Source: Phycisphaerae bacterium (GTDB lineage: Bacteria; Planctomycetota; Phycisphaerae; Phycisphaerales; Phycisphaeraceae). From it: a DNA stretch of 64,000 bases. Location: the NCBI GenBank assembly GCA_030426385.1, contig JAUHYI010000005.1, forward strand, positions 32,996 through 96,995, given 5' to 3'. Positions 2,253 through 61,250 of this stretch are shown here, one piece after another. Every line of letters starts with the position of its first letter. Position 1 is the first letter of the stretch. The position numbers were made by a program, and so were the translations under genes. Below the pieces are notes generated by a model, which was given only the letters and a program-made list of their open reading frames with translations, made no database searches and had not been told where the DNA came from.

Positions 2253-3494
2253 ATGCATGAAGACCCATACGAGCGCAGGGACGCGCTGCCCGACGGATTG
2301 GCCCATCGACGCGGGGCGGGGATCAATCCGGGCAATCGATTTGAGCCCACGCGGGTGCATATCGATGGCGATGCGATGGATCGTCGGCGTCAGGATCGCA
2401 TCGATGAAGGCGGATCGCCCGATGACCCGGTGCGTGTGCCATTGGAAATTTTTGCCGATCACACGCGTCGGCTGATCAACCGGGTGGACCGTACCTCGGA
2501 CGTGCCGTTTGATTGGACGGTGAATCCGTATCGCGGTTGCGAACATGGCTGTGTGTATTGTTTTGCCAGGCCGTTCCACGAGTACCTGGGATTTTCCAGC
2601 GGGTTGGATTTTGAAACGAAGCTGGTGGTTAAGCATGACGCGCCGCGATTGTTGCGCGATGAATTGTCCAACCCGAATTGGCAAGGCGAGCCGATCGTGA
2701 TGTCAGCCATCACGGATGTGTATCAGCCTCTGGAAAAAAAATTACAAATCACTCGGCAATGTTTGGAAATTATGTCGGACTGCGGGCAGCCGGTTTCGAC
2801 GATGACCAAAGGTGCGTTGGTGTTGCGTGATATCGATCTGTGGGAAAAACTAGGCAAAATCAATGCGGGGCGAGTGATCGTGACCTTGGTGACGTTGGAT
2901 GATGTGTTAGCAAAAAAACTGGAACCGCGTGCCGCCGCACCGGCCAGGCGTTTGCATGTGATTCGTGAATTAGTGAAAGCAGGCGTGCCGGTTGGTGTGA
3001 ATATTGCGCCGGTGATTCCAGGCTTGACCGACAAGGAAATTCCGAGGCTGTTGGAAGCGATTGCTGATGCGGGGGCGCGTCGAGTGGCGTGGGTGTTGTT
3101 GCGATTGCCGTATCAATTGAAAGATATTTTTCTGGACTGGTTGGCGCGTGAGTTGCCGGATCGTGCGGGACATGTGGAATCATTAATCCGACAGGCGCAC
3201 GGGGGGAAACTGTATCGGGCTGGCCGACGTGGTAGTGACAAGGTCGCGGTGGATCACGATGGCCAAGGGGCAAGGCGGAAAATTATCAGAAGTGGCATGG
3301 GAGCAAGCGCGGGAGGAAAAGCAATGGGAAATGTAAGAAGGGGTGTGGGTGGAAACGTGGGTGGAAATGTGGGGGGGGTAGCGAGTATGTTTGATGTGTT
3401 TACGCGCAAGTATGGGTTGAATCGAGATGTGCGTCCGCTATCGCGAAAAACGTTCCGTCGTCCGATGCGTGGTGGCCAGATGAGCCTGTTTTAA
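2253..3494 (+). CDS. PA0069-type radical SAM protein (SPL-like family)
   Basis: The protein has 413 residues. The block NPYRGCEHGCVYCFARP holds the CxxxCxxC cysteines that bind the [4Fe-4S] cluster and S-adenosylmethionine. The flanking FHEYLGFSSGLDFETK is characteristic of the PA0069 family, relatives of spore photoproduct lyase-like radical SAM enzymes. The true substrate of this family is unknown. A radical SAM barrel covers roughly residues 95-320. Near residues 360-377 the usual C-terminal region is enlarged by a Gly-Gly-Asn-Val run (MGNVRRGVGGNVGGNVGG), encoded by the dispersed G-rich repeat. The protein ends MRGGQMSLF, a typical family terminus, so the reading frame is intact. No clear ribosome binding site precedes the ATG. 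Confidence 0.88.
   Translation: MHEDPYERRDALPDGLAHRRGAGINPGNRFEPTRVHIDGDAMDRRRQDRIDEGGSPDDPVRVPLEIFADHTRRLINRVDRTSDVPFDWTVNPYRGCEHGCVYCFARPFHEYLGFSSGLDFETKLVVKHDAPRLLRDELSNPNWQGEPIVMSAITDVYQPLEKKLQITRQCLEIMSDCGQPVSTMTKGALVLRDIDLWEKLGKINAGRVIVTLVTLDDVLAKKLEPRAAAPARRLHVIRELVKAGVPVGVNIAPVIPGLTDKEIPRLLEAIADAGARRVAWVLLRLPYQLKDIFLDWLARELPDRAGHVESLIRQAHGGKLYRAGRRGSDKVAVDHDGQGARRKIIRSGMGASAGGKAMGNVRRGVGGNVGGNVGGVASMFDVFTRKYGLNRDVRPLSRKTFRRPMRGGQMSLF
3339..3379 (+). repeat. G-rich 12-bp repeat inside the radical SAM gene
   Basis: About three imperfect units of roughly GGTGGAAACGTG are translated in frame as GGNVGGNVGG near the C-terminus of the radical SAM protein. This is the first of many members of the family in the window. 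Confidence 0.8.
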
Positions 3495-4274
3495 TAACCC
3501 AGGGTGACTAATAGGCATGAGAAGGCATGAGAAGGCATGAGAAAGTAAGAGAAGGCATGAGACAGCACGAAATTGCGTAGCGGGTCACGAGTGCCGAGTG
3601 TGCCGAGAGCGTCGCTGGTGCTGAATTGCAGGCCACACAGCCATGCGGGCGAATTGTCACACGACTGGCCAAGCTGGTCCACCGTGAGACAGGGATAAGG
3701 CCCAACAAGGTCCGATCTTGTTCGCCAAACGTTGTGTTGATGGAAAAAGATCCAACCCCTCCGACGCCCCTAAATCCCCGTGTCATAATTGCAGTTATCA
3801 TATTGACGTGGCATCATTAGGCAGGTAACAGCGTATGCCCGCTGTTGCTGGAGAAGGAAAAACGCCGATAGAAACGATAGTCAGGGGCTCCCAATGGCGA
3901 TTACTGCCAAGGGAAGGCTCACCAGCGATCGGTGTGGCAGGCAGGGATTGTTGGCACATCAGTTGCTCTAATTAATACGGATTGAGCGAATTGGTGGATG
4001 CTAAAATCGAATGAAACAGGTTCTGCACAAAAGGGATGTGGAATTGGGTTGGAGTTGGAAAAAAAATGGGCCGATCTGACGATCGTAGGCAACACGAAAG
4101 ATTCGGTCCTACAATGAAGCAACGATCAGTCAAGCAAAGAATCGAAAAAGATTCAACAAAGAACGAGTTAGCACGGGTCGACATGGATGATTGACCCAAC
4201 CCGATTGCCGAATATCCCATCAAAGTTTTACGCGGCAGACGGGTCAGAAAAATCGAAACGACAGAGAGGATGCT
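3495..4274. other. 780-bp intergenic region upstream of clpC
   Basis: No convincing gene is seen. Short open frames here lack family features. The left end carries a 10-bp tandem repeat. TACAAT at 4111-4116 could serve as a -10 element for clpC, but no good -35 lies at the right distance. AGAGAGGA at 4263-4270 is a good ribosome binding site for clpC. TTAGCAC near 4170 resembles half of a CIRCE heat-shock operator, but the second half is missing. Confidence 0.6.
3513..3562. repeat. Tandem 10-bp repeat (AGGCATGAGA), five units
   Basis: Units start at 3513, 3523, 3533, 3543 (degenerate) and 3553. The array follows the radical SAM stop codon directly. It is a simple tandem repeat with no visible coding or structural role. 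Confidence 0.9.
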
Positions 4275-8616: not shown

Positions 8617-9447
8617 TTACGCGTGTTCAGTCGTGGCAGGTTGTTCGCTGTGATCCGTGATGACTTCGCGCTCGATGAGGCCGTCGCGCAGCCAGATGGT
8701 GCGTTGGCATCGTGTGGCGATGGATGGATCGTGGGTCACCATGATGATGGTCAGGCCCAGTGCGTGTAACTCGTCGAACAAGCCGAGAATCGCCTCACCT
8801 GTGGATGAGTCGAGGTTGCCGGTGGGTTCGTCCGCCAGTAGAAAGCTGGGCTCACTGACCAGAGCGCGAGCGACAGCGACGCGTTGTTGTTGTCCGCCGG
8901 ATAATTCCGACGGGCGATGGTGTAAACGTTCCTGCAAACCAACGCGTTCTGCCGATTGTTCAGCCATCTGTCGGCGTTGTTTGGCGGGGATGGCTTGATA
9001 GAACAACGGCACCTGAATATTTTCGGAAACGGTGAGTTGCGGGATCAGGTTGAACGCTTGAAAGACGAAGCCTAAACGTTTACCGCGTACCTGACTCAGT
9101 TCGCGATCATCGATCTGCGAAATGTCCTGGCCGTCGAGTAGAAACCGGCCATGGCTAGGACGATCCAGACAGCCGAGGATGTTGAGCATGGTAGATTTGC
9201 CGCTACCCGAGGGCCCCATGATGGCGAAATATTCGCCGCGTGTGATGGCCATGTCGATTCCACCGAGCGCGATGACCGGCGGAGCCTGTGCTGATTTTTG
9301 ATAGATTTTTTGAACGTTTTCGAACAGAACCACGACGTCATCTTTTGTAGATGTAGACACAGGCGCGGCGGTAGTCGCTGACGGTGAAAGTGATGATGAG
9401 GGAAGTGGTTGGGGCGTTGGGGGGTGGGGGGGAGTTGGGGGGGTCAT
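8617..9447 (-). CDS. ABC transporter ATP-binding protein (LolD/MacB type)
   Basis: The protein has 276 residues. Walker A is GPSGSGKST at 78-86, the signature is LSGGQQQRV at 182-190, and Walker B is FLLADEPTGNLD. The GNLDSSTG block is typical of the LolD/FtsE/MacB branch, which drives lipoprotein or lipid extraction and peptide export. About 45 residues before the domain are Pro/Thr/Ser-rich (MTPPTPPHPPTPQPLP) and come from the G-rich repeat read on the other strand. The ATG overlaps the fhcA stop codon (ATGA, 9444-9447). No permease gene is adjacent, which is unusual for this family, so its membrane partner must be elsewhere. A link to C1 metabolism is suggested only by position. Confidence 0.92.
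   Translation of the reverse strand: MTPPTPPHPPTPQPLPSSSLSPSATTAAPVSTSTKDDVVVLFENVQKIYQKSAQAPPVIALGGIDMAITRGEYFAIMGPSGSGKSTMLNILGCLDRPSHGRFLLDGQDISQIDDRELSQVRGKRLGFVFQAFNLIPQLTVSENIQVPLFYQAIPAKQRRQMAEQSAERVGLQERLHHRPSELSGGQQQRVAVARALVSEPSFLLADEPTGNLDSSTGEAILGLFDELHALGLTIIMVTHDPSIATRCQRTIWLRDGLIEREVITDHSEQPATTEHA
9411..9444 (-). repeat. G-rich repeat at the fhcA/ABC gene junction
   Basis: The sequence is C-rich on the coding strand. It lies directly after the ATGA overlap and encodes the Pro-rich start of the ABC ATPase. The same arrangement recurs at the fhcB/fhcA junction. Confidence 0.75.
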
Positions 9448-11174
9448 GGTGAGACCTCGGTCAAGTTTTGACGGCGCGTGGCATTGATGCCGTAATTTGT
9501 CGCGTCGATTGTGCTGTGTTTGGTGATCCAGTCGTTGAGCAATGTTTGGCCGTGTTCGCGATCGTGCTTGGGATTGCGGGTCATGACAGGCACGTGTAAA
9601 CGTTGGCCGAAGGTATGTGCCATTTCTTTCGCGTCGGTCACAATCGGTTGACCAGCCTTGATCACGCACCACGGATGGGCAAACATCGATTCAGGATCGT
9701 CGAGTTTGTCGTCGTAGATGGTGAGGTCAGCCTTGGCACCGTGACCGAGATGGCCCGCGTTGGTTAAACCTAATGCGCGGGCCGGTGCGGCGCGTGAGAG
9801 GATCGCGATTTCATACAGTGTTAATTCGCGATCGACCGAACCGAGCGAGGTGTGGTTGGTGGCCTGTTTGTGACAGTCGGCCAGTTGCGCATCACGGCGG
9901 GATTTGCACATGAGTTGGGCGATGAGGCTGGGGTAGTTGAGGAACGAACCGCCATTGGGGTGATCGATGGTGAGCGAGAGTTGCCACAGCATGTCATGGT
10001 CGGCCAGCAGCGCGAGTTCCAAACCGGTGGCCCATTGCATGGCATGTTCGGCTTTGTTGGCGGCGTGGATCATGGGCATGATGCCGAAACAATCTTCGTT
10101 ACCGTTTTCCAGGAAAAACGCGGGCTTGGTGCCGCCGGTCGGTGCGCCGATGTGTCGATATAAATTGAATTCCAAAGGCAAATCAGCGGTCGCGGTGAAT
10201 GCTGGACCGAACGCGACGAGTCCGAGGTCGGCGGTGACTTGCGGATGATCGCGCAAGTGATTGAGGATTTGTTCGACAGCGCTTTGGTAGCCCTCGTTTT
10301 CATTTTTGCCGTAGCAATAATATTGCAAGTGGGCGAGGTGACATCGTCGACCAGCCAGGGCGTTCAACATGGCGAGGGTGATGTCGACATTACCGGGTTC
10401 GCCGAGTTGCGGGCCGTGAATGTGCGTGGGGTGAGGCAGTGCGAAATGTTCCTGGGCTTCGGTGAACAATTCGAGCATGACGCGCGGGGAGACGGTTGAT
10501 CCGGAGGCGGTGTCGTCAATGGTATTAATGCGATCGAGCGACGGATCACGTCGCCACGCAGCCACAGCGGCGGGGTTGACGGCCTTAATGCCATAGGCAC
10601 CGGCGCGATGTAACAATTCGCCGACGAGCGCGATGGCACCGGGACGGTCGTTGTTTTCCAGGCGATCGATGATGGCTTCATGATTGCCGAGCAGGACGAG
10701 CATGCCGGTGTCGAGGTTGGGCATGTCATCGAGTTGCATGTGGGCAAACGTGGCCGCGGCTGGTGGGACGGCCGCTTCAATCGCGGTGGTGTAACCGAGT
10801 TGACCGTATAGTTTGCCGGTCATGGGCGCGGTGGGGCAGATGGCATCGTAGCCTGCGCCGGATTGGATGCTCCGCGCGGTGTTGACGGGCATGGATGCGA
10901 GATGCGAATGCATTTCGATGCCGCCTGCGAGGACGTAACGATTTTGCGCATCGATGATGGTGGGATCGATGCCATCGGGTAATGCGTCGACAATTTTTCC
11001 CTGATGAATCAAAATGTCGCGGGTATCGCCATCGCATTGATGAACGGGGTCGATGATTCGACCCTTGGTGATACGGATGGCGTCGGATGCCGGGGAAAAA
11101 TGTGGGCGGGAAAGTGAAGGGGAGTGTGGGGGGAAGTATGGGGGGGGATATGGGGGGGAATGTGGGGGGGTCAT
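9444..11174 (-). CDS. fhcA: Formylmethanofuran dehydrogenase subunit A homologue (FhcA)
   Basis: The protein has 576 residues and is an amidohydrolase-fold protein. Metal-binding signatures include GGIEMHSHLA (H89, H91), a lysine in YGIKAVNP suited to carbamylation, HIHGPQLGEPGN, HLAHLQYYCYG and TIDHPNGGSF. These blocks are diagnostic of FwdA/FmdA. In methylotrophic bacteria FhcA works in the formyltransferase/hydrolase complex, which converts formyl-tetrahydromethanopterin to formate through a methanofuran-like carrier. The first 28 residues (MTPPHSPPYPPPYFPP and onward) are a repeat-derived extension; the conserved domain begins at about 31. The ATG overlaps the fhcB stop (ATGA), and the TGA overlaps the ABC gene start. 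fhcC and fhcD are not in the window. Confidence 0.93.
   Translation of the reverse strand: MTPPHSPPYPPPYFPPHSPSLSRPHFSPASDAIRITKGRIIDPVHQCDGDTRDILIHQGKIVDALPDGIDPTIIDAQNRYVLAGGIEMHSHLASMPVNTARSIQSGAGYDAICPTAPMTGKLYGQLGYTTAIEAAVPPAAATFAHMQLDDMPNLDTGMLVLLGNHEAIIDRLENNDRPGAIALVGELLHRAGAYGIKAVNPAAVAAWRRDPSLDRINTIDDTASGSTVSPRVMLELFTEAQEHFALPHPTHIHGPQLGEPGNVDITLAMLNALAGRRCHLAHLQYYCYGKNENEGYQSAVEQILNHLRDHPQVTADLGLVAFGPAFTATADLPLEFNLYRHIGAPTGGTKPAFFLENGNEDCFGIMPMIHAANKAEHAMQWATGLELALLADHDMLWQLSLTIDHPNGGSFLNYPSLIAQLMCKSRRDAQLADCHKQATNHTSLGSVDRELTLYEIAILSRAAPARALGLTNAGHLGHGAKADLTIYDDKLDDPESMFAHPWCVIKAGQPIVTDAKEMAHTFGQRLHVPVMTRNPKHDREHGQTLLNDWITKHSTIDATNYGINATRRQNLTEVSP
11101..11173 (-). repeat. G-rich 12-bp repeat at the fhcB/fhcA junction
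   Basis: Five or six G-rich units separated by AANTGT or ATATG sit just inside the start of fhcA. Read on the coding strand they give alternating Pro-Pro and Tyr/His/Phe codons. Confidence 0.85.
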
Positions 11175-12148
11175 GACAGTTCCCCCGTGATTTTTGTGAG
11201 TGCGACGGTGAGTGGATCGTTGTCGAGATGGCCCGTCGTTGAGAAGGGCAACATGATGCCATCGAAACGCATGACGTGGCCGATGCGTGATGGGGGGAGT
11301 GTGAGGATCGGGATGTTGCGGGTGATGGCGTGGCTGATGTGGTCACTGCAGCATCCAGCGAACACCATGAAATCGATCGCACCGATGTCGAGCAAGGTAT
11401 GCAGATCGGCACAGGGTTTGGGTGAGCCATCAGCGAAATCGGTTGGCCCGGTAGCACCTAAACGCCAAGCCATGATCTCGTGCATGCCGCGCGTGTTGGC
11501 AGCATGATCATCGGGCAATGTCAGCACCGCGATGCGAGCGTTGTTCTGACGTTCAGCGGCGAAATGATGCCACTGGCTGGCGACATGCGATTCGACCGAT
11601 GCATCGAGGACGACCGCGATGCGCGTGTATTGTCCGAGCGGTTCGGCGTCGGGTTGATTGCCAAACGTTCGGCGATAATTGAGCACGCTGTCGAGATCGG
11701 GTTTGACGAATGCGGCGCGCAATTGTCGGGCGACGATCCATTGTGTGATGCTGTTGCGATTGCCATCGCAGCCGACCCAGATAATTAATTCGCAGTTGGC
11801 GACCTGGTCGAGTGAGTCCTGCATAGAGACGGGGCGACGCCAATCCTGATTCGCGGTGGTGTTGGATGGGGTAGGGTTGAGCGCGTAGGGGATTAATTTG
11901 CCACGAATTTTTCGGGCCAGATCGATGGCCATGCCGACGTGTTCGATGGACCAATCGGTGAGTCCGACGATGGCCGGTGCACGGCAGTTGGTCAGGGCCG
12001 TGACGAAGGCTTTGGTATCGATGGAGGGGGAGTTGGAAGAGGCGTTGGTGGTGGGGGGGGCATCGGTGGTGTTTGTCGGATCAAGCGCATCGACACTGTC
12101 GTTGGGTGAGGCTAGTCCCGGTATCAATTGCAGGTCAGTGGTCGTCAT
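11171..12148 (-). CDS. fhcB: Formylmethanofuran dehydrogenase subunit B homologue (FhcB)
   Basis: The protein has 325 residues with the start at 12148. It contains segments typical of FmdB/FhcB: a conserved SIEHVGMAIDLARKIRG-type helix, WVGCDGNRNSITQWI, and LPPSRIGHVMRFDGIMLPF near the end. It is much shorter than archaeal FwdB and shows no N-terminal cysteine cluster. This agrees with the bacterial form, in which FhcB is a degenerate, redox-inactive subunit of the hydrolase complex. A short Pro/Ser/Thr insertion near residues 25-40 coincides with a G-rich stretch. The gene follows the ATP-grasp gene by 56 bases and overlaps fhcA by ATGA. Confidence 0.88.
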   Translation of the reverse strand: MTTTDLQLIPGLASPNDSVDALDPTNTTDAPPTTNASSNSPSIDTKAFVTALTNCRAPAIVGLTDWSIEHVGMAIDLARKIRGKLIPYALNPTPSNTTANQDWRRPVSMQDSLDQVANCELIIWVGCDGNRNSITQWIVARQLRAAFVKPDLDSVLNYRRTFGNQPDAEPLGQYTRIAVVLDASVESHVASQWHHFAAERQNNARIAVLTLPDDHAANTRGMHEIMAWRLGATGPTDFADGSPKPCADLHTLLDIGAIDFMVFAGCCSDHISHAITRNIPILTLPPSRIGHVMRFDGIMLPFSTTGHLDNDPLTVALTKITGELS

Positions 12149-13344: not shown

Positions 13345-13348
13345 GATG

Positions 13349-14604: not shown

Positions 14605-14743
14605 GATGTGGCATCGATTGAAATTGTAGTCATGTCACAGGCAGTGGACTTGATGATGGACTATCGCTATTGGGTTGAACCGTCTGGCAACAGCGCATCA
14701 CATGCGCAGGAAAACGCGGGAATAGCGCAGGGTAAGTGGGGGG

Positions 14744-16468
14744 TTATCTTGCGTATTCGACGGTGCGCATTTCGCGTAACACGGTGACGCGAATTTCGCC
14801 CGGGAATGTCATTTCATCGCTGACGCGTTTGGCAATGTCGCGAGCAATGTGATGGCAGACACTGTCATCGACCTGCTGCGGATCGACCACAACGCGAACC
14901 TCCCGGCCCGCTTGAATGGCATACGCTTGTCGCACGCCAGGCAGGCTCATTGCGATTTCTTCCAATTGCTGCAAGCGTTTGACGTAGCGTTCCAATGTTT
15001 CGCGACGCGCGCCGGGACGAGCACCACTGATGGCATCGGCAGCCATCACGATCGGCGTGTAAGGCGTGGTCGCAGGAATATCATTGTGGTGACCAGCGAT
15101 GGCATTCAACACCGCTTCGCTTTCACCAAACCGTTTGCAGAAATCGGCACCGATCGCGGGGTGGCCACCTTCGACTTCGTGGTCCATCGCTTTGCCGATG
15201 TCGTGCAGGAAACCGCACCGTCGGGCCAACTCGCCGTCGAGGCCCAGTTCGTCGGCAATCACCTGACACAGGAACGCCACTTCGTGCGAGTGCCGCAGAA
15301 TATTCTGGCCATAACTCATGCGATAATACAGTCGGCCCATCATTTCGCTGATCTTGGGATGCACGCCCGGCAGGTTGGCTTCGATGCACGCGTCTTTGCC
15401 GAACTTGACGATGCGCTGCTGCATTTCTTTTTGAATCTGTTCGACGATTTCTTCAATGCGCGACGGATGGATACGCCCGTCGTCCAACAGTTTCTGCAAA
15501 GCCTCTGCTGCGATGGCGCGACGCACGGGATCGAAACATGAGACCACCACCACGCCCGGCGTGTCGTCCACAATCACGTCCACGCCGGTGGCTTTTTCAA
15601 ACGCGCGGATGTTGCGACCTTCGCGGCCGATGACCCGGCCTTTCATGTCATCCGAGGGAATCTGAATGGCGGAGACAGTGGCGTCGGCGGTATGCTCCGA
15701 GGCGTAGCGTTGGATGGCCTGCAACGTGATGCGGCGTGCATTGTCGCGGGCGGCTTCTTCGGCGTGTTCCTGCGAACGAGCGATCATCTGTTCGGTTTCG
15801 TGGGCTACTTCACGCTCGACCAGCCGAATGGCTTCCTTACGTGCTTCGTCCGGACTTAACCCGCTCAGACGCAGCGTGATCTGACGCTGTTCCTCGGTGG
15901 TCTTTTCGAGCATCTCGCTATGGGCCACGACCAGCTCGTCGTATTTCGCTTCTTTTTGCGCCGCTTGGTTCTCGCGTTTTTCCAATTTGACGGACTGATC
16001 TTCCAGGAATTTTTCCTTGGAGGCCAGCACGTCCAGTTTTCGGTCCAGCGTGTCTTCACGCTTGGCGATGCGACGTTCCACTTCTTTTAATTCATTGCGT
16101 GTGGCATTCGATTCACGCTCAAATGTTTCTCGCAATTTGGCCTGCTCGGTCCGGGCGTCGAGTTCCAATTGTTTACGCAACGTTTCAGCGTCCAGGCGAG
16201 CCCGATCCACCAATTCGTTCGCGTCACGCTTGGCACGACTGACCGCACCGGCACCCATCAGCTTGGCCACGATCAACGTGACCACAATTCCCACCACCAA
16301 GCCACCCACAGCGATCCCGATTTCCGCATTGCCAACCCCCAACATCCCCCCCCACATGCTGCTAATTTCTGGTTTCATTCCTGCTAACAAATGTCCGGCT
16401 AATATTTCCTGTGATGATAGGCCTGTCCACAGATGGGTCAATTGATTCCAAATTTCTAACGTCGGCAT
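14744..16468 (-). CDS. rny: Ribonuclease Y
   Basis: The protein has 574 residues. This membrane-anchored endoribonuclease starts mRNA decay. A single transmembrane helix ([20 protein letters not shown], about 50-70) is followed by a long coiled coil to about 260. A KH domain with [19 protein letters not shown] comes next, then an HD domain with RHSHEVAFL and [12 protein letters not shown] (HD pair near 422-423), and the family terminus [10 protein letters not shown] chose the ATG at 16468 because AAAGGGG lies six or seven bases upstream; the longer start at 16519 lacks this. RNase Y is normally about 520 residues, and the extra length is in the N-terminal part before the membrane helix. Confidence 0.96.
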
Positions 16469-17045: not shown

Positions 17046-17150
17046 CACCCCCCCACACTTCCCCCACACTTCCCCCACACTTCCACCACACTTCCATCCC
17101 CAGACTTCCCCTCCATCTTCCCCCACATCTTCCCCTCCACACTTCCCCCG
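17046..17150 (-). repeat. G-rich repeat array, intergenic
   Basis: Eight or so blocks of five to seven Cs alternate with ACACTT, ACCACACTT or ATCTT. The complement is the GGGGGAAGTGTG unit. This is the longest purely intergenic array of the family in the window. Confidence 0.88.
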
Positions 17151-17241
17151 TATCGTCCCCTGGGTTTGGCTTCATCTCAGGCCCGCTAAAATTTCGTGCG
17201 TGACATGCTCATGGCTTAGGCATGACACAAAAACGCTCGCT

Positions 17242-17368: not shown

Positions 17369-18712
17369 TCAGCTGAGCGGGTGATCGATGATCGGTTCGC
17401 CTGCGGTGAGTTGGCGATAGAGGTTCAGCAATTGCCTGCGGAACTGGGGCAAGCTGTGTCGCGATTGCACGTCGGCCTGGGCGTTGTCCCGTAGACGTTG
17501 GGCTAATGCCCGATCGTCCAGCAATCGGCGTAAGCCATGGCCTAAAAACCGTGGCTCGCCCGGCACGCTCAGCAACGCGCTATGCTCATCGCGCACCACC
17601 GCCTCGATTTCCGGCACCGCTTGCCCCACAATCGGTAAACCCGCACCCATCGCCCACACCAAACTCGCTCCCCCCCCACATTTCCCCCCACATCCCCCCC
17701 CACTTTCCCCCCCATATCTTCCCCCATATCTCCCCACATATCCCCTCCCAGATCCTCCCTCAGATTTTCCCCCGACAGTGCTCTCGGATGTCCCTCCATT
17801 TGTCGCTCCCGAATTTTCGTCACGTACTTCCCCGCGATCGTTGGCCTCGGGCGAACCGCACACGATCGCCAGATCACACGCGGGCAAGGCCAACCATGGG
17901 CGAGTCAATTCGGGAATTTGCATGACTCGATCGGGACAGCCTAATTCGCGCATGGAAGTTTCGGCGCGTTGGCGTCGGGCTTGCATGGGATGCACACCAA
18001 GTCGCAGGTTCGGGTAATACATTTCAATCCCGTCACCGGCCAGCGAGACGGCCATCGTGGCGATGATCGTGTCTGCGCTGGAGGGGCCCATCGGCGGATC
18101 ACTCAACAGGGCCACGACCGTGACGGCTGGAGCATCAGCATGATCTGTGATGCCCCATGATTGGCGCCGTGCGACTCGTTGCGATTGGCCGAGCGCGAGC
18201 CGATCAGGATCTATCGCTGGGCGTAACGTAAAAATTTGTGTGCCTCGGCAACCCAGGGTTAGCAGCGTTCGGCCGTAGGTAGGATTGATGGGTAGCCAAC
18301 CGATATGCTTTTCGTGAGCCAATTGAGCAATGTGCCGCTGATCGGAGGCATCGGGTGGTTCGGTAATCGTGATGCATAGCTGCGCGGGTTTCAGAAATTT
18401 TTTAGCCAGTACCGCGGCGTTTAATGACCATGCATGCACCATGTCAGCTTGCTGCGCACGCTTGGGTAATTTGTGTCGAACATTCAACCATCGGCCTAAT
18501 GCCACGCCTTGGGGCGCACTGATGACCGCATCCGGCGACAGCCCTGATTCGATGGCCATGGCACGCAATGCGGACGGCCCGATCAATACCACGCACGTTT
18601 CGATATTGTCCTGTCGTGCTGCGCTCACCGCGTCAGCCATCATCGCGAACGTGGTTGGCCACGCTCGCAAGCGGTGGCGATCGGTAGCATCTATCAGGTG
18701 GCAAACCAGCAT
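17369..18712 (-). CDS. Glycosyltransferase, group 1 (GT4-like), with repeat insertion
   Basis: The protein has 447 residues. It has a GT-B layout: an N-terminal domain with ADMVHAWSLNAAVLA and a C-terminal donor-binding domain with GAGLPIVGQAVPEIEAVVRD and a helical end (RRLLDDRALAQRLRDNAQ). GT4 enzymes move a sugar from a nucleotide-sugar to an acceptor, usually in envelope glycan synthesis; the substrate here is unknown. Residues about 308-350 are a Gly-rich low-complexity run (GGKSEGGSGRGYVGRYGGR and onward) placed just before the donor-site motif. It is encoded by the dispersed repeat and keeps the frame open. Its upstream neighbours are two lipoprotein genes in the same direction. Confidence 0.82.
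   Translation of the reverse strand: MLVCHLIDATDRHRLRAWPTTFAMMADAVSAARQDNIETCVVLIGPSALRAMAIESGLSPDAVISAPQGVALGRWLNVRHKLPKRAQQADMVHAWSLNAAVLAKKFLKPAQLCITITEPPDASDQRHIAQLAHEKHIGWLPINPTYGRTLLTLGCRGTQIFTLRPAIDPDRLALGQSQRVARRQSWGITDHADAPAVTVVALLSDPPMGPSSADTIIATMAVSLAGDGIEMYYPNLRLGVHPMQARRQRAETSMRELGCPDRVMQIPELTRPWLALPACDLAIVCGSPEANDRGEVRDENSGATNGGTSESTVGGKSEGGSGRGYVGRYGGRYGGESGGGCGGKCGGGASLVWAMGAGLPIVGQAVPEIEAVVRDEHSALLSVPGEPRFLGHGLRRLLDDRALAQRLRDNAQADVQSRHSLPQFRRQLLNLYRQLTAGEPIIDHPLS
17664..17775 (-). repeat. G-rich repeat array inside the glycosyltransferase gene
   Basis: About nine units lie in frame within the coding sequence. On the coding strand they read as GGG/GGA pairs separated by AAN, TAT or AGT codons. 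Confidence 0.85.
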
Positions 18713-18845
18713 AAAAAAATAACTCGCGTTGTAGAATCGGGGTGGGGTTTGTTACAAACCGAAAAATGAAAACCGAAAACTGAAAAACGGAAAAGCGTGC
18801 TAACCGGTAACGCTTATTCAATCGTCCCACCGTCCCATTACCCCA

Positions 18846-21144: not shown

Positions 21145-21200
21145 GGGGGAGGCATGGAGGGGAAGCGTGGGGGGTGGGGGGGATTAAGTGGGGGGGTGGT
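21145..21200 (+). repeat. G-rich repeat upstream of pssA
   Basis: The run is GGGGGAGG, GGAGGGGAAG, GGGGGGTGGGGGGG and GGGGGGGTGG, ending 17 bases before the pssA ATG. It therefore sits where the promoter or leader of pssA should be. Confidence 0.75.
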
Positions 21201-21216: not shown

Positions 21217-22269
21217 ATGATCGATCGTTATGCCAACACGCCGACCGAAGCCAGCTCGCCGGATCCGGAACAGGAACCGGGCGATAGTGCTATCGAGTCT
21301 CCATGTTCTACCGAGACTACCGAGCCTGCTGAGGCAGCCAAGTCTGGCGAGTCTAACGAGACCACCGACGCGGAGGCCCTCATCCCACGGCGCCGGAGAA
21401 AATACCTGCCCGAGCGCACGTTCGTAATTTTTCCCACATTATGCACCTTGGCCAACGTCATGTGTGGGTTCGCCGCGATTTTTTATGCCAGCAAGGAAAT
21501 CGGCCTGGTTTACGATGCCAGCGGTATGGTCATCATTAAAGGATGGATGCCTCTGGGGTGGACCCCTTTGACCGTCGCCGCTGCATTCGTGTTCACCGGC
21601 ATGATTTTCGATGGCCTCGACGGTCGCATCGCGCGACTGACCCACAGTACTTCTGAGTTGGGCGAACAGCTTGATTCCATGGCCGATATGGTGACGTTCG
21701 GCGTGGCGCCTGCATTCATCGCCACGCAGTTGGTCATAGGTTCGCAGATGCCGTTTTTGACCCAGGAGGGCGATGCGGTTTTCAATCGCGCGGCACTGGT
21801 CATTGCCGGGTTGTATGTGGCATGTGCCGCGCTACGACTGGCACGTTTCAATGTTGAAACGCTCAGCGGTGAGGATACCGATCACATGTCGTTTGCAGGC
21901 ATGCCATCGCCCGGCGCTGCGGGCACGATTGTCAGTTTGACCCTGTTGCACCAACATTTTCTAGCCCATGAGATGGGCGATCACTGGTCGGTCATCGCTT
22001 CGTCGGTAGTGATTGTGGGAATCATGTTGTTGTGTGCGTTGGCCATGGTCACACGCATGCGTTACGCCCACGTGCTCAATCGTTATTTGCGCGGCCGCGC
22101 ACCGTTGAGCTATCTGGTATTGGCGGTGTTGGTCGGGGGCTTGTTGATCATTCGCCTGCAACTTTCCGTGGCCACCGCGTTCGTCATCTATGCCTTGTCG
22201 GGCCCGGTCGCTGCGGGTTGGTCATGGTTGCATCGCAAATCCAGGCAACCCCAACAATCCAGCAACTAG
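21217..22269 (+). CDS. pssA: CDP-diacylglycerol-serine O-phosphatidyltransferase
   Basis: The protein has 350 residues. This membrane enzyme makes phosphatidylserine from CDP-diacylglycerol and serine, the first step toward phosphatidylethanolamine. The CDP-alcohol phosphotransferase signature is complete: D132/D135-G136, A139-R140, G149, D153 and D157 in DGLDGRIARL...GEQLDSMAD. Several transmembrane helices surround it. The first 60 residues are acidic and disordered, followed by a basic patch RRRRKY before the first helix, which is longer than usual. psd, the next enzyme of the pathway, is present at 37-38 kb but not adjacent. Confidence 0.94.
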   Translation: MIDRYANTPTEASSPDPEQEPGDSAIESPCSTETTEPAEAAKSGESNETTDAEALIPRRRRKYLPERTFVIFPTLCTLANVMCGFAAIFYASKEIGLVYDASGMVIIKGWMPLGWTPLTVAAAFVFTGMIFDGLDGRIARLTHSTSELGEQLDSMADMVTFGVAPAFIATQLVIGSQMPFLTQEGDAVFNRAALVIAGLYVACAALRLARFNVETLSGEDTDHMSFAGMPSPGAAGTIVSLTLLHQHFLAHEMGDHWSVIASSVVIVGIMLLCALAMVTRMRYAHVLNRYLRGRAPLSYLVLAVLVGGLLIIRLQLSVATAFVIYALSGPVAAGWSWLHRKSRQPQQSSN

Positions 22270-22980: not shown

Positions 22981-23062
22981 AGCCCCCCCCACACTTCCCC
23001 CCACACTTCCCCCTCCACAGCTCCCCACACTTTTCCCCCATATCTCCCTTACATTTCCCTCC
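22981..23062 (-). repeat. G-rich repeat between ptsN and ptsH
   Basis: Blocks of C5-C8 are separated by ACACTT and similar short spacers. The array fills most of the 156-base gap between ptsN and ptsH and would be transcribed as a G-rich RNA leader of ptsH. Confidence 0.8.
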
Positions 23063-24155: not shown

Positions 24156-25121
24156 TCAGTCGGGAGGCGTGTTGGGGAGAGTCGTGGAAGGGGTGGTGGG
24201 GGGAGTAGTGGGGGGAGTGGTAGGGGGGATGCTGGGGGGGGTAGTGGGGGGTGGGGCGATCGCGGTGGTGGAAGTTGCCGGGTGGGGAATCACTTGAGAG
24301 GGTGGCACGACGACGCCACCACTGATGGTGAACTGTAGCGCTTCTTCGATGGATATGGCCAGTTCGCGGGTGTCTTTTTTCGGAACGGTGATGACATAAC
24401 CAGTAAAAGGTGTGGGTGAACTGGGGATAAATACAGTCAGGCAATGCTCGCCCGCGGCGGCTTGGATCGCACGCATGGTATTACCGGTCAGTAGTCCGAC
24501 CGACCACAGGCCCCTGCGTGGGTATTCAACCGCAACGACCTTGGAAAATTGCATTTTATCTGCGGTATCGTTACCGCCGACGAGAAAATCGGTCACTTGT
24601 TTGACTGCGGGATAGACTTGCCGGATCAACGGAACCTTGCGCAGCAGGTCTTCGCCACGATGGACCAATCGCCTGCCGATGAAACTGCCCAGAAACGCAC
24701 CAGCCATATAAATGATGACCACAGCGACGACCAGCCCGATCAGGTCCATATACAGGGCGTTTTGCCGCCACCAATCGTTAACCAGATGGCGTTTGGTGCT
24801 GTGAGCCAACCAGCCTCGGTTGAAATTGGTCGCCTGCCATTGCTTGTATTGTTGGCCGAATTCCGTGTCGCGGCCTCGGGCGTCCATCAGGGTCTCCGAA
24901 TAGAACTGGATGTCCTCGTCGGTCGCCTGGGGCCAATGGCTGTAACTGGTGATCAACCCACGAATGCCGACGTTGATCGGTTCGGCAATGCGTGTGGAGA
25001 CAAAATTGTAGGCCCAGATGAGAATTCCGATAGTCAGAATACTGGGCAGAAGGATGGCCAGGCCTCGCAGGAAAAAATGGCGAAAATTCGCTCCGAAGCC
25101 TCGGTTTTTAGTCGCCGTCAT
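24156..25121 (-). CDS. DUF502 family membrane protein
   Basis: The protein has 321 residues. It starts with a basic stretch and a hydrophobic helix (LAILLPSILTIGILIWAY), has a second helix near 126-150, and then the DUF502 core (VPLIRQVYPAVKQVTDFL, FSKVVAVEYPRRGLWSVGL, VFIPSSPTPFTGYVITVP). DUF502 proteins are widespread; the function is not known. Residues about 283-321 are a Pro/Thr tail (TTPPSIPPTTPPTTPPTTP) that comes from the G-rich repeat read antisense. The conserved domain ends before the tail, so the repeat has extended the C-terminus. Confidence 0.9.
   Translation of the reverse strand: MTATKNRGFGANFRHFFLRGLAILLPSILTIGILIWAYNFVSTRIAEPINVGIRGLITSYSHWPQATDEDIQFYSETLMDARGRDTEFGQQYKQWQATNFNRGWLAHSTKRHLVNDWWRQNALYMDLIGLVVAVVIIYMAGAFLGSFIGRRLVHRGEDLLRKVPLIRQVYPAVKQVTDFLVGGNDTADKMQFSKVVAVEYPRRGLWSVGLLTGNTMRAIQAAAGEHCLTVFIPSSPTPFTGYVITVPKKDTRELAISIEEALQFTISGGVVVPPSQVIPHPATSTTAIAPPPTTPPSIPPTTPPTTPPTTPSTTLPNTPPD
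24174..24256 (-). repeat. G-rich repeat encoding the DUF502 C-terminal tail
   Basis: About seven G5-G7 blocks are spaced 9-12 bases apart. In the sense of the gene this is a C-rich array giving PPTT repeats. Confidence 0.85.
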
Positions 25122-36734: not shown

Positions 36735-36773
36735 ATTTTTGTGTGTAGCGGGTTAGGGTGTGTGTGGCGGAGA

Positions 36774-36801
36774 AGCAGGAAGCAGGGAGCAGGAAGCAGG
36801 G
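36774..36801. repeat. Tandem 7-bp repeat (AGCAGGA/AGCAGGG), four units
   Basis: Alternating units AGCAGGA and AGCAGGG lie in the convergent gap between the solute-binding protein gene and psd. No coding role is seen. Confidence 0.85.
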
Positions 36802-39682: not shown

Positions 39683-40537
39683 ATGATGGGGGCCATGTCC
39701 AGCCCGCGCCTGATCGATCCCATTGATGTCACGTTGCCCCATTTGCCACCCGAATTGGATGGCGTGCGCATTGCCCATCTGACGGATATGCACATCACCC
39801 GCTTGCGTTCTCGCTACACCGCGGTGGCGTCACGATTGGCCTGTATGCGATTGGATTTGGTGTTTTTGACCGGCGATTACATGACCTATCGCTACGATCA
39901 CGCGATTTCGGTGGACCTGCTGGGCAGGCTATGTCGTGAAGTACGTCCCCGGCATGGCATCTACGGCGTATTTGGCAATCACGATACGACGCCGTTGCGG
40001 CAGGTGCTGCGCGAGCTGCCCGTGCACTGGTTGGATAATCAAGCGGTGCAGCTCGACGGCCTACCGATGGAAATTTTCGGCATGGGGGCGGGGCATGGCC
40101 TGAATCCGGATGCGATGGCGCTGGCCTGCATGGCAACCAATCGACAGGCTGAGCAAGAGGCTCAAGTGGATGTCGATAATCCCAAGGGAAAACGTGGGGG
40201 GGGTGGGGGGGTGCGGGTGATGTTGTGTCATTGGCCGACGTATTTGCCGGTGGCATCGGACATGGGCATGGACCTGATGTTCAGTGGTCACACGCATGGC
40301 GGACAGATTCGTTTGCCCAATGGCTATGCCCCGCGCACGTCGACCGATCTGCCTGGCAAATTAGCCAGTGGCGTATTGCGTCATCGTGAGACGTTGTGTC
40401 TGGTTTCACGCGGCGTGGGCGAAACCGCGTTGCCCGTTCGGTTGTGGTGCAATCCGCATGTGCCGGTGTACACCTTGCATCGTGGCCCGATGCGCGGCAC
40501 GCCGACCGATAGTGTGACCAATGTCCAGCCGTGGTGA
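39683..40537 (+). CDS. Metallophosphoesterase, YkuE-like
   Basis: The protein has 284 residues. The five metallophosphoesterase motifs are present: LTDMHIT, TGDYMT, GNHDTT, CHWPTY and SGHTHGGQIRLP. The family includes YkuE and UDP-2,3-diacylglucosamine hydrolase-like enzymes; the substrate is not evident. A Gly run (KGKRGGGGGVRV, about 168-178) sits between motifs III and IV and comes from G-rich DNA at 40195-40212. I chose the ATG at 39683 because AAGGGGG precedes it; a GTG at 39614 is in frame. It has no signal peptide from this start. Confidence 0.9.
   Translation: MMGAMSSPRLIDPIDVTLPHLPPELDGVRIAHLTDMHITRLRSRYTAVASRLACMRLDLVFLTGDYMTYRYDHAISVDLLGRLCREVRPRHGIYGVFGNHDTTPLRQVLRELPVHWLDNQAVQLDGLPMEIFGMGAGHGLNPDAMALACMATNRQAEQEAQVDVDNPKGKRGGGGGVRVMLCHWPTYLPVASDMGMDLMFSGHTHGGQIRLPNGYAPRTSTDLPGKLASGVLRHRETLCLVSRGVGETALPVRLWCNPHVPVYTLHRGPMRGTPTDSVTNVQPW
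40188..40214 (+). repeat. G-rich repeat inside the phosphoesterase gene
   Basis: A single unit (GGGAAAACGTGGGGGGGGTG) is translated GKRGGGGGV in a loop between active-site motifs. Confidence 0.75.
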
Positions 40538-40617: not shown

Positions 40618-40648
40618 AGGGGAAATGTGTGGGGGGGGGAGGGGGGTT
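40618..40648 (+). repeat. G-rich repeat in a convergent gap
   Basis: AGGGGAAATGTGTGGGGGGG and following Gs lie between the phosphoesterase gene and the 3' end of the unknown gene; the last bases touch that gene's stop codon. Confidence 0.75.
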
Positions 40649-41465
40649 AGATCAGGTGTGCGAATTGGTCGTAGGGGCGTTTGCGTTGGTGACCCAAAGC
40701 ATTGAGCAGTGCGTCACGGCGATAGGGCACCATGCGTTCGAGAATGGATTCGAATCGGCGGGCAGCGACGATGGTGGTATTCATGCGTGAGCCAGCCACC
40801 GGCGGCAGCACTGCTACTGCGGCGAGCAACATGCCGCGCAAACGCACACGGCGCAGGTTCCGTCGAATGAAATTGAAGTCCGCGTATTCGAGCGTTAATC
40901 GTTCGCTTAAAAAAGCAATGTGGCCAGCCAGATCACCGCGTACTTGTCGACAGATGTTGATCAAGTCATCGTCGTGACTGGTGCGTACCACGTGTCGGCA
41001 TTGTTCAGCCAACACGATCAAGCGCATCAGATGCACGGACAATTCGAATCGCGCGCCGAGCTTGCGTCGCCACGTGGGAATGGGTCGCATGGTCAGGCGG
41101 ATGCTGGAGGGTTGCTGTTCGTTTTTTGGGGCAGAGCCATCGTCCTGGCATTGCGTCTGGCTTGGTGATTGGCATTGCGATTGGCATTGCTTATGGACCC
41201 GGGCAAACATGTGCGCGTGGTATTGGCGTTCCTTGAAATACAGACGCAAGGATTGCAGATAGGCCGGGTCGTCGTGACTGTGGACCTGTTCGGTTTTGAG
41301 CAACCAATGGTCATCGGTTTGCGACCAATGCTTGAGCCAGTTGTGGGGCGTGGTGGTATCGTCCGCACCGCAGGTTTCCCAGGTGATTTTGCCGCGTTGA
41401 TGGCGATTGTTCAGGAAGTGGCACAGCCAGTATCGACTGCGACTCCATTCGCGGTTGGTTTCCAT
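40647..41465 (-). CDS. Hypothetical protein
   Basis: The protein has 272 residues and is not recognised. The frame is open over its full length with a codon pattern like its neighbours. It is rich in Trp, His and Arg at the N-terminus (METNREWSRSRYWLCHFLNN), has a Gln/Ser/Cys run (about 92-105) over a 12-bp DNA repeat, and then long basic amphipathic helices (RFELSVHLMRLIVLAEQCRH and onward). The only hydrophobic stretch, GMLLAAVAVLPPVAG, may be a short membrane or buried helix. Nothing around it suggests a function. Confidence 0.6.
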   Translation of the reverse strand: METNREWSRSRYWLCHFLNNRHQRGKITWETCGADDTTTPHNWLKHWSQTDDHWLLKTEQVHSHDDPAYLQSLRLYFKERQYHAHMFARVHKQCQSQCQSPSQTQCQDDGSAPKNEQQPSSIRLTMRPIPTWRRKLGARFELSVHLMRLIVLAEQCRHVVRTSHDDDLINICRQVRGDLAGHIAFLSERLTLEYADFNFIRRNLRRVRLRGMLLAAVAVLPPVAGSRMNTTIVAARRFESILERMVPYRRDALLNALGHQRKRPYDQFAHLI

Positions 41466-42097: not shown

Positions 42098-42175
42098 AGT
42101 AGCCCCCGGTGAATACCGGGGGGGGCGTGCGAGGAGAAAATTGAGGCCGCGCGAGTTTTCAACGGGATGGGTATT
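42098..42175 (-). repeat. Composite repeat: family A palindrome plus conserved flank (left copy)
   Basis: CCCCCGGTGAATACCGGGGG (42103-42122) is followed by a flank containing GAAAATTGAGGCCGCGCGAG (42134-42153). The reverse complement of the whole block matches 60133-60208 closely. The two copies flank the ribosomal superoperon in opposite orientation. Confidence 0.85.
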
Positions 42176-46775: not shown

Positions 46776-46812
46776 CAAAAGAAAAAGACAGCGAAAAGTA
46801 AAATTCGTCACG

Positions 46813-46854
46813 ACTCACGACTCACGACTCACGACTCACGACTCACGACTCACG
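46813..46854 (+). repeat. Tandem 7-bp repeat (ACTCACG), six perfect units, upstream of rpsC
   Basis: The array sits between the palindrome and the rpsC start and is transcribed as leader. One further CACGACTCACGA copy follows at 46866-46877. Single copies of the same motif precede rpsS and rplV. Confidence 0.92.
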
Positions 46855-46891
46855 AACTAATAGAACACGACTCACGAAACTGAGAGTAATC

Positions 46892-49307: not shown

Positions 49308-49651
49308 TGGCTCGACATGTACGACGAGATGACATGGTGATCGTCACCAGTGGCGACGACAAAGGTAAGCAAGGGCGAATCCTGCGCGTGATCCCTGGCG
49401 ATCATCCTAACCTGACCAAAGTGGTCGTTGAAGGTATCAACGTCCGCACCCGGCATATGCGTCCTTCGCAGGCCAACCCGCAAGGCGGCACGGTGCAAAA
49501 GGAATTGCCGATCCACGTGAGCAAAGTCTCGCCTGTGGTCGACGGCAAGCCCACCCGTGTGCGTTTTGAAATCGCTGACAACGGTGCCAAACGTCGCATC
49601 GCGGTCAAGGGTGGCGGCAAGATTGGGCCTGATCTCAAGAAAGCGCGATAA
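49307..49651 (+). CDS. rplX: 50S ribosomal protein L24
   Basis: The protein has 114 residues. The KOW motif is in DMVIVTSGDDKGKQGRILRV, followed by VVVEGINVRTRHMRPSQANP. L24 starts 50S assembly. Its start overlaps the rplN stop. Confidence 0.97.
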   Translation: MARHVRRDDMVIVTSGDDKGKQGRILRVIPGDHPNLTKVVVEGINVRTRHMRPSQANPQGGTVQKELPIHVSKVSPVVDGKPTRVRFEIADNGAKRRIAVKGGGKIGPDLKKAR

Positions 49652-49707
49652 CCCCCCACACATACGCACGGCAAAACAAGCAAGACACGTTAAACGGATA
49701 GATCATC

Positions 49708-50349: not shown

Positions 50350-50619
50350 ATGTCCAGTAAATCCACCATTGTAAAAATGAAGCGCATCGAAGCGACGATC
50401 GCCAAGCATCGCGAGCAGCGTGAAGCGTTGAAAAAAGCAGGCGACTATGCGGGTTTGGCCCGTTTGCCTCGCGACGCCAGCCCGACACGATTGCGTAACC
50501 TGTGTGCCCTGACCGGCCGAAGCCGATCGGTGTATCGCAAGTTCAAAATCTCGCGTATCAAACTGCGTGAACTGGCCTTGGAAGGCAAAATCCCCGGCAT
50601 GCGTAAAGCATCCTGGTAA
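50350..50619 (+). CDS. rpsN: 30S ribosomal protein S14, zinc-free form
   Basis: The protein has 89 residues, the long class of S14. It ends [20 protein letters not shown], then [18 protein letters not shown]. Only one cysteine is present, so the CxxC...CxxC zinc site of the short form is absent. This fits a zinc-independent ribosome, as does L36 in the same operon. Confidence 0.97.
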
Positions 50620-50805
50620 CCCCCCCCCATATTTTCCCCTGCATGAACGACATTTTTGGGGGTCGGGAATGATGGGATGGGAAATGGGAATGGCGAAAGC
50701 CTGATACGAAAGTAAAGACGAACCAAACGTCACGAAGATATAAGAGTCACGAATTACGGACCCGAATCACCACAACGCGTGATTCACTGATAGGACACTA
50801 GCCCA

Positions 50806-56931: not shown

Positions 56932-57315
56932 ATGCCACGACTGGCTGGGATGGAAATCCCCGACAATAAAAAAATTCGCATCTCGTTGCGTTACATCTAC
57001 GGCGTTGGCCCCAAGAATGTGCAAGACATTCTCAAAGCGGCTGACATCGATGGCGAACGACGTGCCCACGAATTGAACGAAGACGAACTGGCGAAAATCG
57101 CTGGTATTCTCGAAGCCGATTACATCGTCGAAGGTGCTCTGCGTCGACAAGTGGCTCAGGATATCTCGCGACTACGCGATATCCGTTGCTATCGTGGTGA
57201 TCGTCATCGTCGCGGCTTGCCCGTGCGTGGCCAACGAACGCAGACCAATGCCCGTACCCGTAAGGGCCGTCGTAAGACCGTGGCAGGCAAGAAGGGCGTC
57301 AAAGGCATGAAGTAA
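56932..57315 (+). CDS. rpsM: 30S ribosomal protein S13
   Basis: The protein has 127 residues. MPRLAGMEIPDNKKIRISLR, YIYGVGPKNVQDIL, DISRLRDIRCYRGDRHRRGL and PVRGQRTQTNARTRKGRRKT are S13 blocks. S13 bridges the 30S head to the 50S subunit. Confidence 0.98.
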   Translation: MPRLAGMEIPDNKKIRISLRYIYGVGPKNVQDILKAADIDGERRAHELNEDELAKIAGILEADYIVEGALRRQVAQDISRLRDIRCYRGDRHRRGLPVRGQRTQTNARTRKGRRKTVAGKKGVKGMK

Positions 57316-57525
57316 CCCCCCCCCACGTTTCTCTTGGTTATTGGCAAGGGAAATGGTGGCTGTGGTTGGTTAGGTTTGGGATTGGAAGTTTCCAGTTGGT
57401 ACGGTTTGTCGTCGGACGACGAATCAATTTGAGTCAGTATGAATCAGTGGCGTGTGGCTACTGAATGACAATTTAACGATGCAAGCTGCTGATATCACGG
57501 CGGCGCCACTAAAAAGAGAGCATCA

Positions 57526-60005: not shown

Positions 60006-60078
60006 CGCGTTTTCGTGTGACGTTTTCGACGACGATGTCGCGATAAACGCATGCCAGGATACGATCAATGTAAGACCA

Positions 60079-60107: not shown

Positions 60108-60132
60108 ATGGGTGGATCGTGAGTTGAGGGGG

Positions 60133-60208
60133 GATACCCATCCCGTTAAAAAACTCGCGCGGCCTCAATTTTCCCTTCACACAAACTCCCGGTATTCACC
60201 GGGATCTA
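60133..60208 (+). repeat. Composite repeat: conserved flank plus family A palindrome (right copy)
   Basis: The flank contains CTCGCGCGGCCTCAATTTTC (60152-60171), then CTCCCGGTATTCACCGGG (60186-60203). It is the inverted counterpart of 42098-42175. Confidence 0.85.
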
Positions 60209-60279
60209 ACAAAAAACTACGCGCGAGTATTTATCGTAATCCGTATGAGCTAAAAGTTAACCATAGAAGCATGGCATAA

Positions 60280-60304
60280 TAGCCCGCGATGAATATCGTG
60301 GGGC
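60280..60304 (-). repeat. Palindromic repeat family A variant
   Basis: TAGCCCGCGATGAATATCGT followed by GGGGC. The stem uses GAT/ATC in place of GGT/ACC at its top. It is nearly identical to the copy at 62657. Confidence 0.7.
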
Positions 60305-60320
60305 GTTATTTTTGGGGTAC

Positions 60321-60334
60321 GTTAAGCCGCGAGC
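60321..60334 (+). repeat. Partial palindromic repeat family B
   Basis: GTTAAGCCGCGAGC matches the first half of the family B element; the second half has decayed. Confidence 0.45.
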
Positions 60335-60429
60335 AGCAGTGGCCGAGGCAGGTAATATGTGAAGTGTATCGAAGGGGGATAATTACGCTATGGAAACATG
60401 GGGGGGGTAAGTGGGTACAATTGCGTGTT

Positions 60430-61185: not shown

Positions 61186-61220
61186 TCTGAAACGGCAGAG
61201 GAAACAGAACAGTAGCGATG

Positions 61221-61250
61221 GGGATATATGGGGATATGTGGGGGGGGATG
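61221..61250 (+). repeat. G-rich repeat at the start of mgtE
   Basis: GGGGATATATGGGGATATGTGGG runs on into more Gs. It overlaps the possible first codons of mgtE, again placing the repeat at a gene start. Confidence 0.75.

Follow-up and report, generated by a model that had tools for sequence, protein, structure and literature searches.

The window analysed here, a 64,000-nucleotide stretch of contig JAUHYI010000005.1 from a metagenome-assembled genome (MAG) of a Phycisphaeraceae bacterium, carries many arrays of a short G-rich tandem repeat with units close to GGGGGAAATGTG. These arrays recur throughout the genome, lie with their G-rich strand on the G-skewed DNA strand, are often translated, and in many cases abut a stop codon exactly, so that a C-rich tract begins at the first base after the gene. 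The explanation we favour, with a probability of about one half, is that they belong to a genus-specific family of dispersed short tandem repeats that multiplies by slippage or template switching at G-runs on the G-skewed strand. Mechanistically, a polymerase copying the G-rich strand would slip, or switch between G-runs of different arrays, and would thereby insert units 5' of an existing run (e.g., Gly or Gly-Gly codons). Switching between arrays would keep the spacers alike across the genome, so that each lineage drifts to its own dialect, and selection would retain the harmless copies, i.e., those in intergenic regions, those read in the GGNV frame within protein loops and termini, and those at the ends of genes.

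Abundance and architecture of the arrays

Allowing up to two mismatches, GGGGGAAATGTG had 44 matches in the window, compared to a mean of 9.86 (sd 2.86, maximum 19) in 100 shuffled sequences, and a 16-base form, GGGGGAAATGTGGGGG, had 966 matches at the same tolerance in the whole genome (5,193,894 bases in 177 contigs), compared to six for the reversed word. The first-pass annotation of this DNA had reported more than twenty places; the repeat is more abundant than that, and the genome-wide count that it proposed lies far above the expectation from composition. Among its 16 example sites, 12 match GGGGGAAATGTG within two mismatches, the site at 40188 is a looser core, and the arrays at 9411, 21145 and 24174 have other spacers between their G-runs.

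Arrays were also mapped in a 1.21-Mb sample of the genome (60 loci including the window), which is non-random and was drawn partly from contigs seen in pattern match lists; genes were called with our own codon-usage caller. The main counts refer to 53 loci (1.07 Mb), with seven loci from contig C42 (140 kb, nearly array-free) set apart, while the sample for the skew analysis comprised all 60 loci, and the G-run distances, array sizes and repeat-word counts come from 437 kb. The earlier suggestion that the G-runs could form G-quadruplexes agrees with a count of predicted quadruplex motifs, 537 in 1.07 Mb compared to 81 in a first-order Markov sequence.

The arrays are irregular, with runs of at least four G (G4+; other runs are written likewise) joined by AAATGT, AAACGT or shorter spacers, and often with a longer G-run at the end. 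Their ends are polar, and they grade from one unit to many without fixed length or ends. End-to-end distances between G4+ runs peak at 12 bp within 8–16 bp, the sole range counted, and are mostly 10–14 bp; of 71 arrays with at least three G4+ runs, 37 have three, 20 have four and 14 have five or more. Different loci share spacers more often than column shuffles do (pairs of length 6, 3482 vs 887; length 7, 194 vs 31; length 8, 9 vs 1.2).

Genus-level dialects

The relatives compared were 60 genomes, none from the genus of the source, whose ClpC has its best match (79%) in a Phycisphaeraceae MAG. In line with the comparison that the first-pass annotation had proposed, most of them carry the AAATGT unit at close to background level; more matches occur in G005 (21 vs 7), G014 (19 vs 3) and G035 (13 vs 8), partly through other spellings such as GGGGGAAATCCG. 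Another word, CCCCCGGAAGT, which the source genome contains only four times (control 0), is expanded to 91–642 copies in ten genera of the same family (copies/control: G014 642/1, G006 575/3, G015 440/0, G026 352/4, G030 244/4, G028 218/0, G013 120/1, G002 118/0, G029 117/3 and G033 91/4), and it is weaker elsewhere, including in another family of the order (G045 42/0, G057 37/0). Neighbouring copies of CCCCCGGAAGT, among the matches listed, are often 11–13 bp apart. The repeats thus come in genus-level dialects, with one spelling per lineage and a recurring architecture.

Orientation with strand skew

The strand that bears G6+ runs follows the local G-skew (r = 0.87, 36 loci). The sense GC skew at third codon positions (GC3 skew) of plus-strand genes is anticorrelated with that of minus-strand genes (r = −0.79, 33 loci), which makes the skew a property of the DNA strand. 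The G-skewed strand that carries the arrays is presumably the leading strand.

Copies translated within proteins

The main sample holds 191 strict cores, of which 100 are intergenic, 70 lie in genes with the G-rich strand in sense, 11 lie in genes in antisense, and 10 are directly at stops. The claim that sense copies are read as GGNV runs holds for 31 of 38 sense cores, the others being read as GKCG (4) or GEMW (3). A strict 12-bp period that lets units expand without breaking the frame, as had also been proposed, is not borne out: multiples of three make up only 39.4% of 477 coding spacings and 34.3% of 731 intergenic ones (8–16 bp range). Since the spacing is barely more often a multiple of three in genes, the reading frame seems to be kept through selection on the entire insertion.

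Two host proteins were aligned with orthologues, as the first-pass annotation had advised, and both alignments point to Gly-rich sequence that orthologues lack or that sits in loops of variable length. The RND/MMPL gene (30213–33107, plus strand) was compared with 19 non-own sequences, of which 18 were usable once L183, in the wrong frame, was ignored. Its third array (32857–32898, plus strand) is a 13-residue insertion relative to the 18 and ends at a Gly common to all of them. In the region of the second array (32431–32488, plus strand), which is added sequence relative to the orthologues, the protein has about 45 residues, compared to roughly 3–12 in 16 of the 18 and about 27–33 in the other two; the array ends at a Gly present in six of the 18, and part of the extra stretch is a second, palindromic repeat. 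The first array (31977–32045, plus strand) lies within a variable-length loop. In the solute-binding protein gene (35019–36734, plus strand), the second array (35973–36023, plus strand) occupies a variable-length loop, with its columns filled in 24–54% of 119 homologues, directly before a Gly-Gly found in several short-loop homologues, and the first (35117–35135, plus strand) lies in a variable linker after the N-terminal hydrophobic stretch. The palindromic repeat, which resembles GCTAAGCCGCAAGCGGC, stands beside arrays (window 32414–32430 and 63984–64000; L011 7498–7560); its copy in the RND gene is translated in frame as LSRKRR, in the stretch that orthologues lack.

Further genic arrays in the window are a G-sense array at 3348–3378 (plus strand) in a radical-SAM gene (2253–3494, plus strand); a 7-run array at 17670–17745 (minus strand), in frame within a glycosyltransferase-like gene (17369–18643, minus strand); an array at 40186–40211 (plus strand) in a metallophosphatase gene (39683–40537, plus strand); and a 7-run array with other spacers at 24174–24251 (plus strand), antisense in the 3' end of a DUF502 gene (24156–25121, minus strand) and read as a Pro/Thr tail. 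The first-pass annotation had placed about half of its example sites inside genes, which stands overall (nine of 16 genic, at 3339, 17664, 24174, 31977, 32443, 32858, 35111, 35973 and 40188, and six intergenic), with the site at 22981 neither clearly genic nor intergenic. Some of the placements in genes are not supported: 9411, 11101 and 61221 are intergenic by the present calls (ABC, amidohydrolase and MgtE starts at 9333, 11012 and 61261, respectively).

Exact junctions with stop codons

In 52 of 703 called genes, a C6+ run starts on the base immediately following the stop; the corresponding counts are zero for G6+ and A6+ and two for T6+. When the first C6+ run within 60 bases of a stop is considered, 52 of 70 are at offset 0, and CCCCCC is the sole hexamer seen at least six times at this position (52 vs 4.3 per other offset, 700 genes); the pentamers TGGGT (7 vs 1.0) and TGTGA (6 vs 1.1) are weakly raised. 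The junction is polar: of 129 G-strand 3' ends with an antisense stop ahead of them within 400 bp, 50 lie at distance 0 from it, compared to one of 201 5' ends facing a sense stop. The stop is TAA in 45 of the 52 C-run genes and in 93 of 194 matched genes.

Seven such junctions lie in the window. Four face minus-strand genes: the G-run array with other spacers at 9411–9443 (plus strand, intergenic) abuts the amidohydrolase gene 9444–11012 (junction 9443/9444), the intergenic array at 11093–11170 (plus strand) abuts gene 11171–12148 (11170/11171), the G6 run at 14738–14743 (plus strand) abuts gene 14744–16378 (14743/14744), and the array at 40618–40646 (plus strand) abuts gene 40647–41465 (40646/40647). 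The other three, all with their G-rich strand on the minus strand, directly follow plus-strand genes of a ribosomal-protein cluster: G6 (C6 in sense) at 49652–49657 after gene 49334–49651 (49651/49652), an array (C9 in sense) at 50620–50639 after gene 50377–50619 (50619/50620), and another (C9 in sense) at 57316–57331 after gene 56950–57315 (57315/57316). Judging by their sequences, the last two genes are rpsN-like and rpsM-like, respectively, and the ribosomal-protein names below are assigned in the same way. In 20 ribosomal-protein regions of relatives, C6+ was found only in G026, where it follows an rpsC-like and an rpsN-like gene; C5 forms occur in G011, G013, G014 and G026. At-stop runs are only weakly conserved at orthologous genes (2/39 vs 2/261, p = 0.08; best matches of at least 45% identity with matched C-termini, the 39 cases being almost all from three ribosomal-protein genes, and loci chosen by match, 0/1 vs 3/25, excluded); the clear case of a conserved tract is rpsN in the source genome and G026.

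The junction is accompanied by a change in the gene itself. At fourfold sites, the C fraction in the last 12 codons is.63,.77 and.66, compared to.49–.60 in codons 12–100 before the stop of the same 48 genes; codon positions 1 and 2 show no rise of C near the stop, 168 matched genes show the opposite trend, and the C-rich, G-poor stretch spans −20 to +40 around the stop. Intragenic arrays in either orientation (152 sense, 45 antisense) show a one-sided shift in the same sense on the 3' side of the G-strand, and the flanks of intergenic arrays do not (G.33 in the 3' flank and.43 in the 5' flank). The frequency of at-stop runs falls with gene G-skew, from the most C-rich to the most G-rich class (23/87, 14/102, 11/114, 4/129, 0/132 and 0/143), and none of 275 genes with GC3 skew >0.2 has one. 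Around gene starts, C6+ runs number 64 and G6+ runs 252.

TAA followed by C8 occurs 101 times (control 6) in the source genome, 123 times (control 61) in 36 other genomes of the family, where G015, G014, G020, G026, G030, G033 and G028 carry the excess, and six times (control 12) in 24 genomes of other families; in many of the relatives that have it, it continues as CCGGAAG. In 400 kb of G014, in stretches not chosen around matches but from contigs that had appeared in match lists (another locus set was chosen around TAA-C8 matches), C5+ stands at +1 in 12 of 273 genes, and of the 17 CCCCGGAAG units that come first downstream of a sense stop, not one starts directly at it. G020 is without such a unit, and seven of its eight distinct genes with a C-run at the stop are G-skewed; in the G-skewed genes with a run, C becomes the prevalent base in the final codons (.65 of 20 sites vs.19, 3 genes), whereas 36 G-skewed genes without a run do not (.20 vs.19).

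Other accounts of the junction were tried and rejected. TTA as an insertion target finds no support: the triplet follows two of 250 G-run ends in coding sense and 16 of 404 between genes (background 0.8%; some of the 16 may be uncalled stops) compared to 49 of 56 at stops. Growth of G-runs that overwrites flanking DNA up to the stop fits poorly with terminal runs elsewhere being little shorter (mean 6.8–6.9 vs 7.6 at stops) and with the examined coding arrays being additions. Boundaries of transfer RNAs (tRNAs) were dropped as a control, since the 51 loci hold only three tRNAs and the window has none.

Weighing of the explanations

The one-sided effects and the strand bias point to a process at the DNA level, and the base-exact start at stops together with the genes of G020 points to something read in the gene's own direction; these two lines of evidence fit together only in part. 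Several observations weigh against slippage and switching. Slippage alone does not account for the exact abutment of stops at offset 0. The C-runs of G020 abut stops of G-skewed genes, so the skewed strand does not always set the orientation; unit orientation in G014 tracks skew only weakly (r = 0.17); and array density is not related to the size of the skew (Spearman 0.04). Skew within the window is patchy and flips near 14–24 kb, which is why the leading strand is a presumption. Furthermore, no spacers of 9–14 bases are shared between loci, i.e., long templated copies were not seen, and with no genome of the same genus among the 60 relatives, no empty site was seen.

The strongest rival, which we consider unlikely, is that the C-rich strand is a putative Rho-loading (rut) sequence, onto which Rho would load once ribosomes leave at the stop, ending transcription; on the G-skewed strand it would also end transcription against the fork, including antisense transcription of genes with G-sense arrays. 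Rho was found in 35 of 37 genomes, the source included, and the singular rise of CCCCCC at stop+1, the C-rich and G-poor span with its silent-site excess (also in G020), the scarcity of C-sense cores in genes (11/81) and of C6+ around starts, and the small number of intrinsic terminator-like sites (6/52, 19/194 and 11/339) are in its favour. The C clusters are mostly 10–14 nt apart, similar to the YC dimers 9–13 nt apart that describe rut sites (PMC9160355), with the comparison resting on C-cluster spacing and not on YC chains. However, elements sit between genes of the ribosomal-protein cluster that are expected to be co-transcribed (separate promoters are possible), and the silent-site shift also occurs beside intragenic G-sense arrays, where the mRNA is not C-rich; both argue against a simple terminator. 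Genes with the element do not have fewer terminator-like sites (6/52 vs 19/194), figures that also led us to reject a stem-loop terminator, and there is no clear enrichment before convergent genes (18/51 vs 135/498 others, gaps of at least 60). The poor conservation of at-stop runs at orthologues and their absence from strongly G-skewed genes also count against Rho loading.

The remaining alternatives are less probable still. If the unit were a DNA signal maintained by molecular drive or by selection, in the manner of a DNA uptake sequence (DUS) or a Chi-like site, the copy number in the hundreds and the spelling specific to each lineage would have a parallel in the DUS dialects of Neisseriaceae (PMC3630211), but irregular arrays with variable G-runs and spacers and no fixed word make it improbable. 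Even more doubtful is a small mobile element, similar to a miniature inverted-repeat transposable element or a Rickettsia palindromic element, inserting copies within and between genes: the additional in-frame stretches of coding sequence are in its favour, whereas graded arrays of one to many units lack fixed length and ends, and no word of the next three bases dominates beside the non-stop copies. One exact 17-base form had no match in IMG/VR, which also led us to set aside a phage origin. That base composition, strand skew or assembly artefact lies behind the counts is very improbable. The genome is a G-skewed draft, and most of contig C42 (140 kb sampled) is nearly array-free with different codon usage; against this stand the 966 matches compared to six for the reversed control, and the differently spelled repeats of the same kind in independent genomes, including G030 with a contig >5.8 Mb.

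Relation to described repeats

The statement of the first-pass annotation that no element with this behaviour was known is too strong. The closest described kind is the dispersed quadruplex-forming heptamers found in Xanthomonas (GGGNATC) and Nostoc (GGGGA(C/T)T) by Rehm et al. (2015, PMC4692102). They are mostly noncoding, their G-rich copies near gene ends are reported on the coding strand no more than 50 bp from the stop, with a preference for the noncoding strand in Nostoc, and the authors identified no role for them. Scattered G-rich tandem units with quadruplex capacity, variable length, lineage-specific spelling and a gene-end bias are common to both. The present units differ in their spacing of about 12, their irregular G-runs and their lack of a four-unit preference; the arrays follow strand skew and are often translated, and what follows the stop is a sense strand rich in C, beginning exactly at +1. 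A coding strand rich in G after the stop, as in that report, is not seen here: none of the 703 genes has G6+ at stop+1, and only a few such runs lie in the first 45 bp.

Like the DUS of Neisseriaceae (PMC3630211), the present repeat has short words, very many copies and dialects between related species or genera, but its tandem arrays are irregular, their G-runs vary, and in the source genome their orientation follows strand skew. With rut sites (PMC9160355), it has in common C-rich, G-poor RNA with spaced C clusters after the end of translation, but it is present inside the ribosomal-protein cluster and has similar strand effects within genes, and a termination role is putative. A search by titles and abstract openings found nothing on such repeats in planctomycetes, which does not prove that none has been published. 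Units translated in frame within unrelated proteins are also a feature of Rickettsia palindromic elements and of other coding repeats; the present repeat is neither palindromic nor of fixed length. The orientation of the G-strand with skew and the exact abutment of stops with a silent-site shift to C are new here.

Other arrays and repeats

Intergenic arrays elsewhere in the window comprise nine G4+ runs in two groups at 17048–17160 (minus strand), a G-run array with other spacers at 21145–21196 (plus strand) upstream of gene 21217–22269 (plus strand), and an array at 61218–61247 (plus strand) upstream of the MgtE gene. The array at 22983–23061 (minus strand) straddles the called HPr gene start at 23004 (minus strand), and the true start may be further downstream.

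Several other repeats were seen. The window has heptamer repeats of TCACGAC, GAAGCAG, AAACCGA and ATTTCTG (sites at 46808–46855, 36772–36800, 18756–18786 and 63525–63554) and five copies of the 10-mer AGGCATGAGA at 3513–3562, just after the radical-SAM gene; in L011, AGTTAAA arrays adjoin G-arrays. Longer dispersed repeats (L009–L027 and the window) are represented by 12-mers from GAGCCGAATTACGTTAG and GCGTCTGCAGTTGACC, found 18–26 times in 437 kb, and a sequence close to GAGGCCGCGCGAGTTTTTAACGGGATGGGTAT lies at about 42139–42175 (plus strand) and 60134–60173 (minus strand) of the window, near 4115 in L013 and near 430 in L014. The 140 kb of C42 (positions 1–140000, L017–L023) have a lower GC content, a codon-usage score of 0.086 compared to 0.165, and no C6+ run within 150 bases of any of the 69 gene ends there; they represent an acquired island or a binning error.

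Implications

To our knowledge, terminators in Planctomycetota have been little studied. A bolder reading, which we hold to be unlikely, is that the genera of the Phycisphaeraceae each keep a C-tract gene-end signal in their own dialect, most likely a Rho landing site, and that the same DNA is reused as protein loops. If so, the tract would spread C into the last silent sites and clear transcription after the ribosomes leave, and on the G-skewed strand it would terminate transcription that runs against replication. More generally, the exact stop junction and its silent-site shift raise the question of whether translation termination, Rho or replication shapes the 3' ends of planctomycete genes. 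As the spelling changes between genera while the architecture (G/C runs, short spacers and a C-tract at the stop) recurs, concerted repeat turnover becomes testable, and the translated arrays show a route by which noncoding repeats enter protein loops.

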